The notes under the pieces were generated by a model, which saw nothing but the letters and a program-made list of their open reading frames with translations, was not told the origin of the DNA and searched no databases. From Stenotrophomonas acidaminiphila (GTDB taxonomy: Bacteria; Pseudomonadota; Gammaproteobacteria; Xanthomonadales; Xanthomonadaceae): 64,000 nucleotides of DNA. The stretch lies in assembly GCA_002951995.1 (NCBI GenBank), contig CP019797.1, positions 1,534,501 through 1,598,500 on the forward strand, read 5' to 3'. Below are positions 10,251 through 59,826 of the stretch, in pieces (position 1 is the first letter of the stretch; every line of letters begins with the position of its first letter). Made by a program: the position numbers and the translations under genes.

Positions 10251-10280
10251 GCGGCCCCTGCCTGTCCTGCGGCTTCACCG

Positions 10281-10690
10281 GTAAGGCCCATGCGGGGCGA
10301 GCCCCGCATCTACGGGGTCTGCTCGGCGGCAACGACCCGCACGTCCACCACGCCGTCGCCGACGCTCATGCGGGCATCTGCATGGTTGCGTCGGCTGTCT
10401 GCTCGTCGATGCCGGGCTTGCCCGGCACCGGGCTTCATCGGCAAGGCCCATGCGGGGCGAGCCCCGCATCTACCGGATCTGCTCGGTGGCAACGACCCGC
10501 ACGTCAAGCACGCCGTCGCCGACGCTCATGCGGGCATCTGCATGGTTGCGTCGGCTGCGTGTTCGTCGATGCCGTGCTTGCCCGGCACCGCGCTTAATCG
10601 GCAAGGCCCCTGCGGGGGCGAGCCCCGCATCTACGGGGTCTGCTCGGCGGCAACGACCCGTACGTCCACCACGCCGTCGCCCACGCGCGC
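10281..10690. repeat. Tandem 160-bp repeat: duplicated 3' end of xseA plus GTAG palindrome
   Basis: Units begin at 10281, 10441 and 10601, with an exact 160-bp period. Each starts with a palindrome (atgcggggcgagccccgcat followed by ctac), then a copy of the last ~16-18 codons of xseA read on the minus strand. The third unit is the true xseA end; the other two are downstream copies. Copy 1 still encodes [16 protein letters not shown], and copy 2 has drifted (VLDVRVVATEQ). About 70 bp in each extra unit are unrelated to xseA. The palindromes with GTAG at one end match the SMAG type of REP sequence. Confidence 0.88.
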
Positions 10691-23319: not shown

Positions 23320-24183
23320 ATGTTTACCCGTATTGGCCTGTTCCTGTTGACCAACCTTGCCGTGCTGGTCCTCGCAGGCATCGTGATGTCGGTGCTGCGC
23401 GTCAACCCGGCGCAGATGAGCGGCCTGCTGGTCATGGCCGCGATCTTCGGCTTCGGCGGCTCCATCATCTCCCTGCTGCTGTCCAAGTTCATGGCCAAGC
23501 GCGGCACCGGCGCGGTGGTGATCACCGAGCCGCGCAACGCGACCGAGCGCTGGCTGCTGGACACCGTGGCGCGGCAGGCCAAGGCGGCCGGCATCGGCAT
23601 GCCGGAAGTGGCGGTGTACGACGGCCCCGAGATCAACGCCTTCGCTACCGGCGCCAACCGCAACAACGCGCTGGTGGCGGTGTCCACCGGCCTGCTGCAC
23701 AACATGAGCGAGGACGAGGCCGAAGCGGTGCTGGGGCATGAGATCGCGCACGTCGCCAACGGCGACATGATCACCATGGCGCTGCTTCAGGGCGTGCTCA
23801 ACACCTTCGTGATCGTGCTGGCACGCGTGGTCGGCGGCATCATCGACAGCGCGCTGTCGGGCAACCGCGACGGCGGGCGTGGTTTCGCCTACTACATCAT
23901 CGTGTTCGTGCTGGAGATGGTGTTCGGCCTGTTCGCGACGATGATCGCGATGTGGTTCTCGCGCCGACGCGAGTTCCGCGCCGACGCCGGTGGCGCCAGC
24001 CTGGCTGGTCGCCAGAAGATGATCGCCGCGCTGGAGCGGTTGAAGCTCAATCACGGCCAGAGCACGCTGCCGACCCAGATCGCGGCGTTCGGCATCGCCG
24101 GGTCGACGGCGAAGAAGCTGTTCCTGAGCCATCCGCCGCTGGAGGAGCGCATCGCCGCGCTGCGTTCTTCGACGGTGGCGTAA
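23320..24183 (+). CDS. htpX: Membrane protease HtpX
   Basis: A 287-residue inner-membrane zinc protease that degrades misfolded membrane proteins with FtsH. Two N-terminal membrane segments ([34 protein letters not shown]), the active site HEIAH in [13 protein letters not shown], two further hydrophobic segments, and the zinc-ligand Glu in [11 protein letters not shown] are visible. Length is close to the E. coli protein. A strong terminator follows. Confidence 0.95.
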
Positions 24184-24211
24184 CCGGTTCGACAACCCGC
24201 GGTAGCCCAAA

Positions 24212-24239
24212 GACGCCCGGCAAGTGCCGGGCGTTTTTC
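24212..24239 (+). terminator. Intrinsic terminator after htpX
   Basis: Stem acgcccggc / gccgggcgt with an AAGT loop and a T5 run. Confidence 0.88.
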
Positions 24240-24302
24240 ATTGGAGCAGTGTTTCCGCTCTCGCTCTTGCTTGTGCCTTGGCTCCTGCGCTTTTGACTTC
24301 AG

Positions 24303-24512
24303 ATCCCCTTCCGCAGCGACGGAGCCGACGGGAAAAACCCGAAGGGCGACGCGCATGGACGCGCGTCGTTTTTCTACGCGACAGGGATGTCGCGTAGAAA
24401 AATCCCGGCGGCGGAGTGGACCCGGAGTGCCGCAGGCACGGAGGGCGCGGAGGCAGGGGCGTGCTTTCTCTTGGTTACTTCTCTTTGCACGAGCAAAGAG
24501 AAGTAACTCGCT
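24303..24512 (+). repeat. Structured non-coding element, left arm
   Basis: A ~210-nt unit with a fixed layout. A box starts ccccttccgcagcgacgg and ends in T5. Hairpin A (24369-24402) has a 15-bp stem. A link aatcccggcgg...gtggaccc leads to hairpin B (gtgcc gca ggcac). A link ending gtgctttct leads to hairpin C (24474-24507), a perfect 15-bp stem with an ACGA loop. No credible coding frame. It matches the right arm in inverted orientation. Confidence 0.8.
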
Positions 24513-24690
24513 CCTGCGAAGCAGGGGCGAAAGCTCTGCTTTCAAGCTTCCGCTTTCATGCTTGGCCTCTGGCTTGGCCCCTTTGACTATCGCGTTGGTA
24601 CAGACGTCCAGGGAAAGCCAGAGCAAGGGCGGGAACAGGATCAAAGGCTTTCGCTCCCCTTCGGGGCGCGAGCCACCTTGACCAGCCATT

Positions 24691-24902
24691 CGGCTGTTGA
24701 AGAGCTCTTCTTTGCTCGTGCAAAGAAACGTGGCCCAAAGAAAGCACGCCCTGCCTACGCGCCCAGCCCGCTGCGCGGGCTGGGTCCACTGCGCCGGCGG
24801 GATTTTTCGACGAGACATCCATGTCTCGTCGAAAAACGACGCGCGTCCATGCGCGCCGCCCTTCGGGTTTTTCCCACCGGCTCCGTCGCTGCGGAAGGGG
24901 AC
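24691..24902 (-). repeat. Structured non-coding element, right arm (inverted copy)
   Basis: Read on the minus strand it repeats the left arm box by box: same opening box, hairpin A at 24803-24836, same link, hairpin B (here a longer ccagcccgc stem), same gtgctttct link, and a shorter hairpin C around 24708-24727. Hairpin A differs from the left arm at two stem positions, and both differences are compensated on the other strand of the stem. About 180 bp of non-repeated sequence separates the arms. Confidence 0.8.
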
Positions 24903-24933
24903 CCGTAAGTCAAAAGCAAAAGCACCAGCAACA

Positions 24934-24990
24934 GCCAAAGCCAAAGCCAAAGCCAAAGCCAAAGCCAAAGCCAAAGCCAAAGCCAAAGCC
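24934..24990. repeat. Hexanucleotide microsatellite (GCCAAA)9
   Basis: Nine perfect tandem GCCAAA units plus a final GCC, between the right arm of the structured element and suhB. The flank (caaaagcaaaagcaccagcaacagc) looks like decayed units. A change of one unit would not shift a frame. Confidence 0.95.
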
Positions 24991-25063
24991 TTCATCTGGT
25001 GACATTGAATGGGGGCGCAGCCGCGGGCCGCCGGTTCGCGGCTGCCGCGGCGGACGGCATGCC

Positions 25064-25095
25064 AGAAACGGAAACGGCGCCCTCGCAGGCGCCGT
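25064..25095 (-). terminator. Probable terminator after suhB
   Basis: On the minus strand the stem acggcgcc / ggcgccgt is followed by TTCCGTTTCT, a broken T-rich tract, 24 bp after the suhB stop. Confidence 0.65.
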
Positions 25096-25118
25096 CCGGG
25101 ATCGCGGGAAAGGCCGGA

Positions 25119-25946
25119 TCAGAACTTCGGATCGAACTCGGCGGCGTGGCCGGTGTTGACGATCACCTTCTGCAGCGCCTCGCACACCTTCAGGTTGCCG
25201 GCCACCACCTGCTGGGTTTCCGGGCCCTTGTCGTCCATGCGCGCCAGGGTGGCGCCGCGGTAATTGCAGACCTTGCCGCCGGCCTCGCGCACCAGCAGCA
25301 CGCCGGCGGCGATGTCCCATGCCTTCACCCCGGCCTCGAAGTAGGCGTCGGCGCGGCCGCAGGCCACGTAGGCCAGGTCCAGCGCCGCCGAACCGGTACG
25401 GCGGATGTCCTCGGCCTGCACCAGCAGGGTATCCACGGTCTTGAGCTGGCTGCCGGCACGGGTGCGCTCGCGCGGGGCGAAGCCGGTGTGGATCATGGTG
25501 CCGTCGAGGTCCTTGCGCTCGGCCACGCGGATGCGGCGGTCGTTGAGCACCGCGCCGGCGCCCTTGGAGGCGGTGAACAGTTCGTTGCGCAGCGGGTCGA
25601 AGATCACCGCGTCGGTGGGTTCGCCATTCTCGACCAGGGCGATCGACACGCAGTAGTGGGGGAAGCCGCGCAGGTAGTTGCTGGTGCCGTCCAGCGGGTC
25701 GATGACCCACATCTGCCGGCCGTTGCCCTGCAGGCCGCCTTCCTCGCCATAGATGCCGTAGTCCGGGTAGGCGCGCTTGAGTTCCTTGACGATCACCTTC
25801 TCGGCGTCACCATCGACTTCGCTGGCGTAGTCCATCCGGCCCTTCTGCACCACGTTCAGCGCTTCGAGCTTGTTGATGTTGCGCAACAGGACGTTGCCGG
25901 CGAGGCGTGCGGCCTTGACCATGACGGTGACGGCGGGTTTCTGCAT
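25119..25946 (-). CDS. suhB: Inositol-1-monophosphatase family protein SuhB
   Basis: A 275-residue Mg-dependent phosphatase of the inositol monophosphatase family, which in bacteria also acts as an rRNA transcription antitermination factor. Metal-binding motifs are seen: [20 protein letters not shown] and the distal [17 protein letters not shown]. Length is close to E. coli SuhB. It is divergent from trmJ, with about 120 bp between the starts; a GGGAG ribosome site precedes ATG 25946. Confidence 0.93.
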
Positions 25947-29959: not shown

Positions 29960-30468
29960 CCACACGCAGGTGCGCGGCTACCCCACACCGGGACATACCG
30001 ATAAAGCCCCGGGCGGGGCGAGCCCCGCCCCCCACGACGTAGGTGGCGGCTTCATGCGTATTGCCGGTGATCCACCCACGTAGGTGTGGGGCTTGCCCCA
30101 CACGCGGACGTACCGATAAAACCCCGGGCGGGGCGAGCCCGCCCCCACGGGTGGCGGCTTCATGCGTATTGCCGGCGATCTACCCACGTAGGTGTGGGGC
30201 TTGCCCCACACGCGGACGTACCGATAAAACCCCGGGCGGGGCGAGCCCGCCCCCACGGGTGGCGGCTTCATGCGTATTGCCGGCGACCCACCCACGTAGG
30301 TGTGGGGCTTGCCCCACACGGGGACGTACCGGTAAAGCCCCGGGCGGGGCGAGCCCGCCCCCACGGGTGGCGGCTTCATGCGTATTGCCGGCGATTTACC
30401 CACGTAGGTGTGGGGCTTGCCCCACACGCGGACGTACCGGCAAAGCCCCGGCGGGGGCGAACCCCGCC
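29960..30468. repeat. 108-bp satellite array of inverted GTAG (SMAG-type) palindromes
   Basis: taggtgtggggcttgccccacac recurs at 30081, 30189, 30297 and 30405, an exact 108-bp period, with a degenerate first unit from about 29960. Each unit has two palindromes in opposite orientation: a GTAG-headed tgtggggcttgccccaca and a cggggcgagcccg type. These are joined by gtaccgataaaaccc and by a ggtggcggcttcatgcgtattgccggcga spacer. The array fills the gap between the GGDEF-EAL and epmB genes. Because 108 is divisible by 3, long open frames cross it on both strands; they are not genes. Confidence 0.92.
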
Positions 30469-41478: not shown

Positions 41479-42630
41479 GTGGCTGCTAAAAAACCTGCAA
41501 AAAAGGCCGTCAAGGTCGCCAAGAAAACCGCCAAACCTGCAGTCAAGAAGGCGGCGTCCAAGCCGGTAGTCAAGAAACCGGCCGCCAAGACCGCCAAGCC
41601 GGCTGCGAAGAAGGCGCCTGCCAAGAAGGTGGTGGCCAAGAAGGCCCCGGCCAAGCAGGCAGCGCCCGCCAAGAAGGTCGCGGTCAAGAAGGCCGCGGTC
41701 AAGAAAGCCCCCGCCAAGAAGGTGGCCGCCAGCAAGAAGGTGGCCGCCAGCAAGGCCCCGGCGAAGAAGGTGGCTGCCAGCAAGGCTCCGGCCAGGAAGG
41801 CGGCAGCCCCGCTGGCCAAGGCCGCCCAGCCCGCCAAGCCGGCACCCGGCAAGACCCCCGCCAAGACCGCGGCCAAGGCCTCCAAGTCCCCGGTCAGCAA
41901 ACCCATCGTGAAGTCCGTACCGAAGCCGGCTGCCAAGCCGGTGCCGGCCAAGCCTGTCCCGGCCGCAGTCGCCAAGACGGTACCCGCCCCGGCCCCCGCG
42001 CCGGTGGCCAAGGCACCGGCTCCGGCAGCCAAGGCCCCGCAATCCAAGAATCCCGTGCCTGTTTCGAAATCCCCCGCAAAGACCGCCGTCAAATCCGCCG
42101 CACCCGCCGCCGTCCGTCCGGTCGGCAAGGTCGCCGTTGCCGTCACCGCACGCTCGGCCGCCCCGGCCCCGCGCAGCAAGCACAAAGTGGTCGAGTACAA
42201 GACCGACGAGGCGACCGGCCGGCCGATCCTGCCGGCAGGCTACAAGCCCTCGGCGGACGAGGAATACATGAGCCCGCTGCAGCAGGAGTACTTCCGCCAG
42301 CGCCTGCAGGACTGGCGCGCCGACCTGGTGGAGGAATCCAAGCAGACCATCGAGAACCTGCGCGAGGAAGTGCGCGACATCGGCGACGAGGCCGAACGGG
42401 CCACCCGCGAGACCGAGAATTCGCTGGAACTGCGTACCCGCGACCGCTACCGCAAGCTGATCGGCAAAATCGACAGCACGCTCAAGCGGCTGGAGTCGGG
42501 CGACTACGGTTACTGCGTGGACACCGGCGAGGAAATCGGCCTGGAGCGCCTGGAAGCACGTCTCACCGCCGAGCGCACCATCGATGCCCAGGAGCGCTGG
42601 GAGCACATGCAGAAGCAGCAGGGCGACTGA
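41479..42630 (+). CDS. dksA: DksA-family regulator with long Lys/Ala/Pro-rich N-terminal extension
   Basis: A protein of 383 residues, against about 150 for E. coli DksA. Residues 1-235 are a low-complexity basic tail of PAKKVAASK-like repeats resembling histone H1 or AlgP/Hc1-like tails, probably DNA-binding. The C-terminal DksA domain keeps the coiled coil and NSLELRTRDRYRKLIGKIDSTLKRLESGDYGYC-type core (positions 320-360). The tip motif is DEAERA, with E for the second Asp. The zinc finger is reduced to one Cys (CVDT; then TIDA), so zinc binding is doubtful. GTG start with AAGGAAGAG upstream. It binds RNA polymerase with ppGpp in the known family; the tail's role is inferred. Confidence 0.9.
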   Translation: MAAKKPAKKAVKVAKKTAKPAVKKAASKPVVKKPAAKTAKPAAKKAPAKKVVAKKAPAKQAAPAKKVAVKKAAVKKAPAKKVAASKKVAASKAPAKKVAASKAPARKAAAPLAKAAQPAKPAPGKTPAKTAAKASKSPVSKPIVKSVPKPAAKPVPAKPVPAAVAKTVPAPAPAPVAKAPAPAAKAPQSKNPVPVSKSPAKTAVKSAAPAAVRPVGKVAVAVTARSAAPAPRSKHKVVEYKTDEATGRPILPAGYKPSADEEYMSPLQQEYFRQRLQDWRADLVEESKQTIENLREEVRDIGDEAERATRETENSLELRTRDRYRKLIGKIDSTLKRLESGDYGYCVDTGEEIGLERLEARLTAERTIDAQERWEHMQKQQGD

Positions 42631-46677: not shown

Positions 46678-46984
46678 TTGTTGCATCGCGGCACTTGCGT
46701 GGTGCCGGAACGCGTGCGACCATGCGCGACGATGAAGGCGAACAGCTTCCAGCACGAAACCAGCACCGCCCGGATGGCCTCCGGCATGACCTCGCGTGCC
46801 CGCCGACCGGAACCCCACATATTCGCTGGGTAAACCGGAGCCTTGTGCTGTCTGTTCGGAAAACCCAGCCCCCGGCTGGGTTTTTTCGTTTCTGCTCCAC
46901 GAAAGTTTCAACTGCAATGAGCCGCGCGTCCGCGCATCCTGCCGCCGGCAACGGTGGTCCCCCGCACCAGCAAAGGATGGATCG
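46678..46984 (+). promoter_or_regulatory. Leader region of the arginine cluster
   Basis: A 307-bp gap. It contains the hairpin at 46860-46887 and, after it, a weak promoter candidate (TTCTGC 46890-46895, 17 bp, TGCAAT 46913-46918). A frame from 46695 stays open to 46994 but has no ribosome site. The hairpin may end the upstream gene's message or act as an attenuator for argF'. No ARG-box palindrome was recognised with confidence. Confidence 0.4.
46860..46887 (+). terminator. Intrinsic terminator or attenuator upstream of argF'
   Basis: An 11-bp stem aaaacccagcc / ggctgggtttt with a CCC loop and six T in total. It is 183 bp after one gene and 97 bp before the next, so either a late terminator or a leader attenuator. 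Confidence 0.8.

Positions 46985-59509: not shown

Positions 59510-59586
<77 letters not shown>

Positions 59587-59749: not shown

Positions 59750-59826
<77 letters not shown>

Follow-up and report, generated by a model that had tools for sequence, protein, structure and literature searches.

A dispersed inverted-pair repeat related to TwoAYGGAY RNA in Stenotrophomonas acidaminiphila

The gap between two convergent genes of Stenotrophomonas acidaminiphila, encoding an htpX-like M48 peptidase on the left (23320-24183, + strand) and a suhB-like inositol monophosphatase on the right (25119-25946, - strand), is home to an inverted pair of structured units of about 210 nt each (24303-24902). Positions refer to the window, the whole 64,000-nt stretch of contig CP019797.1 that we analyzed. 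We found it to be a dispersed variant, in inverted-pair form, of a known, functionally unexplained kind of RNA. In our view it is best explained as a non-autonomous, dispersed inverted repeat that consists of diverged TwoAYGGAY-kind units and may act as an RsmA decoy or as an RsmA-responsive 3' element; we give this reading a probability of about 0.5. A literature search among open-licence papers found no description of the repeat.

Architecture, copies and occupancy of the site

The outer arms of the element (24304-24423 and 24782-24901) are 92% complementary over 120 nt, and the inner arms (24457-24499 and 24709-24751) are 86% complementary over 43 nt. This confirms the original prediction that two copies of one layout face each other. 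Sequence, self-complementarity, and comparison of copies delimit a left unit (24303-24512, + strand) and a right unit (24691-24902, - strand), each of which carries hairpins D, A, B, and C in this order when read 5' to 3' on its own strand. Hairpin D (24348-24367 on the left and, on the - strand, 24838-24857 on the right), identified from sequence and alignment, had been missed in the prediction. It covaries and, as in hairpin A, its loop contains GGA, reading ATGGAC in both units. Hairpin A, detected by inverted-repeat search on both sides and supported by covariation (left) and alignment (right), lies at 24369-24402 with the loop AGGGAT and at 24803-24836 with the loop ATGGAT on the - strand. 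Its stems, CTACGCGACA/TGTCGCGTAG and CGACGAGACA/TGTCTCGTCG, come with T5/A5, and the two predicted stem changes between them, each compensated, are correct in both the stems and the changed pairs. The cores holding the two GGA hairpins, a TwoAYGGAY-like one at 24337-24402 (+ strand) and its counterpart at 24803-24868 (- strand), score 90.3 and 89.9 bits with our covariance model R1, to whose training set both units belonged.

Hairpin B, seen in the sequence and by comparison of copies, is variable and GC-rich on the left (24421-24445, + strand) and has its counterpart at 24762-24784 (- strand). Hairpin C was found by inverted-repeat search as the palindrome GTTACTTCTCTTTGC/GCAAAGAGAAGTAAC on the left (24474-24507, + strand) and by the same search and the sequence itself on the right (24708-24727, - strand). 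Beside the right hairpin C lies an extra 26-nt module (24680-24705), known from sequence and copy comparison and missing in S. acidaminiphila JCM 13310, and outside the right arm the tandem-repeat listing gives a hexamer array of 9.7 AGCCAA units (24933-24990). The open reading frames that overlap the element are probably mechanical. Folded as a single RNA strand, 24290-24915 reaches -439 kcal/mol compared to -256 (SD 5.5) for 20 shuffles, and as a DNA strand -271 compared to -128 (SD 4.1), energies that are no proof of function because every long inverted repeat folds in this way.

The element is a dispersed bacterial repeat. Querying the host genome with 24290-24915 returned 65 matches, which by our grouping fall at about 16 places, with full-length pairs of about 600 to 630 bp at several. 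The copies vary in a modular fashion, with one arm swapped for a different half in some and insertions inside hairpin A in others, and single arms occur in both orientations. Both hairpin A types of the window recur at other copies. Thus, although the compensation itself holds, the two window arms do not represent two independent compensations, and the evidence for it rests on the family-wide alignments described below, not on these two arms alone. Hexamer arrays of the pattern GTTGCY flank the copies; we grouped its 39 perfect genomic matches into 12 clusters, 11 of them no more than 200 bp from the end of a matched element and one about 370 bp away, apparently in coding sequence. The control with the reversed pattern is not independent, since that pattern is a rotation of the original. 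Inspected by eye, the element ends run into the hexamer arrays, a target-site duplication is not evident, and empty sites are highly diverged.

We compared the same site in relatives across 80 htpX loci, in 43 of which suhB lies convergent within 3 kb. One of these 43, that of JCM 13310, has the same element at the same site. The outer right arms of the two genomes agree at 118/120 positions on the same side and at 99/113 crosswise, and the outer left arms at 107/113 compared to 102/112; hairpin B is too short to tell the sides apart. The core between the B hairpins (24458-24750) is reverse-complemented between the two genomes, with 260/262 positions matching when flipped and 201/237 when not, an inversion explained by recombination between the arms. 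The check for empty sites at orthologous loci, proposed with the original prediction, found no match to the element in the htpX-suhB gap of Stenotrophomonas sp. SY1, S. pictorum, and S. humi. The copies and these differences in occupancy demonstrate that the element has spread.

Any BLAST match to the element was seen at 12 of the 80 htpX loci, all of which, except JCM 13310, belong to S. maltophilia-group genomes. The gap in this group contains a relative that has hairpin C and, judged by eye, a similar scaffold around a different central domain that lacks the GGA hairpins. One locus (L033) has only a solo hairpin C palindrome, and at four others (L044, L046, L047, and L048) hairpin C accommodates an additional module that bears one GGA hairpin, both again judged by eye.

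Several separate observations were made along the way. The same gap in Stenotrophomonas sp. Iso1 contains a different inverted repeat (a CCCTCTCCCG palindrome) with GTTGCT/AGCAAC arrays on its flanks. A record titled Bacillus subtilis SK7B5 has an htpX gene 90% identical to that of the window and is probably contaminated or mislabelled. Elsewhere in the window, units of 108 bp and 160 bp with GTAG/CTAC-tagged palindromes form tandem arrays (29963-30464 and 10271-10686) that are probably REP clusters; two tRNA-Pro (CGG) genes lie close together on the - strand (59510-59586 and 59750-59826); and short tandem repeats of AAGAAGGCGCCGGCC at 41608-41802 would, read in that frame, encode a stretch rich in Lys and Ala.

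Covariation, conserved loops and distribution across genera

We aligned 41 units over hairpins D and A (19 from the host, 2 from JCM 13310, 13 from other Stenotrophomonas, and 7 contributed by three genomes of other genera), leaving out host arms with an interrupted hairpin A and half-type arms. In this set, 95.9% of the cells pair, and changes on both sides were found in 16 of the 21 pairs. The number of cells changed on both sides, 103, was reached in none of 500 shuffles (mean, 22.4), and the number of further pair types was unexceptional (95 of 500 shuffles reach the observed value). All 41 units have GGA in both loops. The 110 matches obtained outside the genus reduced to 97 distinct rows, of which three were also training units. 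Here, 93.1% of the cells pair, all 21 pairs show both-side changes (3/500 shuffles reach that), 630 cells are changed on both sides compared to 174 after shuffling (0/500), and GGA stands in both loops of 88/97 rows. In an overlapping mixed set, made of the best 112 of 149 rows (103 of them distinct), both loops have GGA in 97/103; the 37 rows left out scored lower and were in many cases antisense. Pairing and loop counts lean upward in both of these alignments because they were fitted by the model.

We also examined a stem that encloses the hairpins and lies outside the model. Among 103 distant arms whose flanks were complete, both anchors of this stem, located with regular expressions made post hoc, were present in 41 distinct arms; a helix score of at least 7 was reached by 30/41 arms with their own partner and by 236/1603 mispaired combinations. 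Together, covariation and conserved loops across genera support the view, already put forward in the original prediction, that the units are under selection on structure. Many copies whose stems lack covariation would have spoken against it; instead, covariation was seen within the 41-unit set and again in every pair outside the genus.

A covariance-model search, as proposed with the original prediction, was run with R1, a model of these units, and returned matches in 109/198 genomes of the host family, representing 45/54 genera. In Gammaproteobacteria, R1 matched 50/369 genomes from 42/271 genera at E<=0.001 and, by our count, 32/369 genomes at E<=1e-6; four of the matched class genomes had supplied training units. 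In a sample of the phylum, 29/398 genomes were matched, 22 of them within the class, and the seven outside it were weak (best, 1.8e-6). The host itself has 21 matches and several family genomes have at least 26, these high counts being lower bounds because 26 is the number of candidates scored. Among the genomes listed for the host genus, some have R1 matches and some do not. R1 was run without negative-control genomes, and matches near 30 bits are uncertain since the complementary strand of true units reaches about 21 to 32 bits. The csrA gene is present in 313/369 class genomes, including, by our reading, 41 of the 50 R1-positive ones, and showed no significant association with R1 matches (39/40 compared to 241/274 when genomes had a completeness of 90% or more, p=0.098), so that its occurrence is not informative.

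Kinship with TwoAYGGAY RNA and a putative RsmA-responsive role

TwoAYGGAY is listed as probably RNA by Weinberg 2010 (PMC2864571), and PMC4333381 makes the computational proposal that it sequesters CsrA and names tandem G-A pairs in the stem as one of its traits. In the window, AYGGAY loops sit on two adjacent hairpins of the right unit (ATGGAC and ATGGAT) and, with one deviation, of the left unit (ATGGAC and AGGGAT). The right unit scores 32.6 bits against the family (RF01731) over 24786-24888, below the curated cut-off of 43. In a scan of 37 genomes with RF01731, the host had no match at E<=0.001, and two genomes, G039 and G042, were above the cut-off. When 38 loci found by R1 were scanned, only L257, L316, L319, and L322 exceeded it, with 47.8 to 61.1 bits; these represent three genomes of one distant genus and three places, L319 repeating an arm of L257. 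Arms above the cut-off in that genus provide intermediates that connect the scaffold to the family. Thus, judged by sequence and through these intermediates, the window units are kin to TwoAYGGAY, yet they are not members at the curated threshold. No known Rfam family reached its cut-off over the element in a scan of the window that included sponge families, and none did so at 17 loci with copies or relatives except one tRNA.

Three further RNA-related observations stand apart from the element. The window contains the Xanthomonadaceae sRNA Xoo5 (RF02242) at 46730-46854 (+ strand; 124.3 bits, above the cut-off of 50). Four loci of the S. maltophilia group of Stenotrophomonas (L234, L237, L238, and L239) carry another dispersed repeat of TwoAYGGAY-like type that lacks hairpin C, scores below the RF01731 cut-off, and has an outer stem with GCAGGAC..GTCCTGC. 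At locus L232 of G042 (789-1135 and 1501-1607), the RNase P RNA gene is followed, about 370 nt downstream, by a TwoAYGGAY match above the cut-off.

CsrA/RsmA binds the consensus ACARGGAUGU (CANGGANG). CsrA-sequestering sRNAs carry GGA in hairpin loops, as in the loop repeats of CsrB, and one CsrA dimer can grip two hairpin sites. We found that the loop GGA fits the consensus CANGGANG in both hairpins of both window units. On its own strand, each unit would present the neighbouring hairpins D and A, with ANGGAN loops, within a stem-closed domain, followed by B and the palindromic C. Read-through from a flanking gene would be the simplest way to transcribe a copy in the GGA direction; each of its units would then offer two putative CsrA/RsmA-type hairpins, as many as one CsrA dimer can grip, and the repeat could act as an RsmA decoy or as an RsmA-responsive 3' element.

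The distribution of G-T and A-C cells in the stems fits an RNA of this strand. In GGA-strand stems outside the genus, we counted 24 G-T and 4 A-C cells (p=0.0002); the overlapping mixed set gave 27 and 12 (p=0.024), and the genus part alone 8 and 5. Because RNA tolerates G-U pairs and DNA hairpins would show no preference, the excess points to RNA of the GGA strand, as support rather than proof, since covariance models favor G-U in the alignments fitted to them. Against this reading, a promoter scan found no sigma-70-like promoter in 24100-25150, and a terminator-like hairpin, seen by eye and absent from the promoter-scan listing, lies between htpX and the element (24209-24238). Single arms in both orientations, the S. 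maltophilia-group relative without GGA hairpins, the window units' RF01731 score below the cut-off, and the lack of a significant csrA association also speak against it. The RsmZ family (RF00166) had no match in the host genome, and a 2020 study of the related genus Xanthomonas that searched for known RsmA-sequestering sRNA families reports no homologue of those (PMC7694677).

A wider proposal, which we regard as rather unlikely, is that a mobile repeat present in many copies across the class Gammaproteobacteria is itself an RsmA/CsrA decoy. Each insertion would add two CsrA sites per unit to the transcriptome, and the copies together would form a genome-wide dispersed sponge, selfish or domesticated, beneath the global regulator. 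If true, dispersed repeats would titrate a global regulator. The window ties TwoAYGGAY, a predicted RNA without explained function since 2010 (PMC2864571), to many-copy inverted repeats, and because these supply many natural variants, the proposed sequestration of CsrA becomes directly testable.

Alternative explanations and known systems

The original prediction had named either an RNA or a folded DNA substrate of a transposase acting in trans. A purely DNA-level, non-autonomous element of the MITE, REP, or TIR type, whose single-stranded hairpins such an enzyme would recognize and whose loop conservation would reflect that enzyme, is a less likely alternative. It would account for copies that are dispersed, inverted, and modular and for a site occupancy that differs between species, and long-TIR transposase repeats have been reported in S. 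maltophilia (PMC3733652). On the other hand, the preference for G-T over A-C on the GGA strand and the kinship with an RNA family argue against it. We searched 13 genomes, 11 of which have a Y1-transposase gene, and none of the 27 Y1_Tnp loci (RAYT/TIRYT) had arms within 1.5 kb; the only matches, at some of these loci, were to a short REP located within the spacer of the element found in S. maltophilia. The evidence leans toward the RNA alternative of the prediction, given the TwoAYGGAY intermediates, the CsrA-like loops, and the G-T excess, and a partnership with Y1 transposases was rejected; the repeat may still spread at the DNA level. Membership among GTAG/CGTC REPs, short palindromes in which one end carries an unpaired tag, GTAG or CGTC (PMC3733652), was likewise rejected, as these letters occur only inside the paired stem of hairpin A.

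The remaining explanations are improbable to differing degrees. Compensated stems might arise without selection if imperfect palindromes were corrected by template switching and copies underwent gene conversion. Active recombination is indeed evident from swaps of whole hairpins, hybrid arms, and the inverted core, but the loops rather than the stems are most constant across genera, and own-partner pairing extends to a long-range stem outside the hairpins, which makes this account improbable. A bidirectional terminator or mRNA 3'-end stabilizer between convergent genes, for which only foldedness would matter, appears just as improbable. Distant clusters do lie more often between convergent (19/41) than divergent (4/41) genes, but 18/41 lie between tandem genes, such tallies being weak hints because the crude gene caller misread the window's own neighbours; by our reading, 4/15 host regions have convergent neighbours. 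Moreover, the terminator-like hairpin already follows htpX, and this role needs no conserved loop sequence. Least probable by far is an invertible switch in which core orientation matters; the core that matches JCM 13310 only when flipped, between outer right arms that stay in place, would fit it, but no promoter-like site was found in the region, homologous recombination between near-identical arms suffices, and the inversion was seen at one locus only.

Under the preferred reading, with TwoAYGGAY-kind units of a possible RsmA-related role, the element shares traits with several known systems. It resembles TIRtron TIR repeats, which are associated with Y1 transposases in S. maltophilia (PMC3733652), in its long, partly self-complementary inverted repeats and dimers, but has no Y1_Tnp gene beside its arms at the 27 loci. 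With BIME/REP mosaics it shares modularity, intergenic location, and units of alternating orientation; in contrast to them, its units are much longer, the tag letters are stem-paired, and the scaffold is common across the class. The GGA-bearing hairpin loops of the window units recall the sponges CsrB and RsmX/Y/Z, from which the element differs by two sites per unit, many dispersed copies, and no promoter found. Like TwoAYGGAY RNA (RF01731), it has two neighbouring hairpins with loops of the A-Y/N-GGA-Y type; unlike it, the window units score below the cut-off, continue into hairpins B and C, and are set as dispersed inverted pairs.
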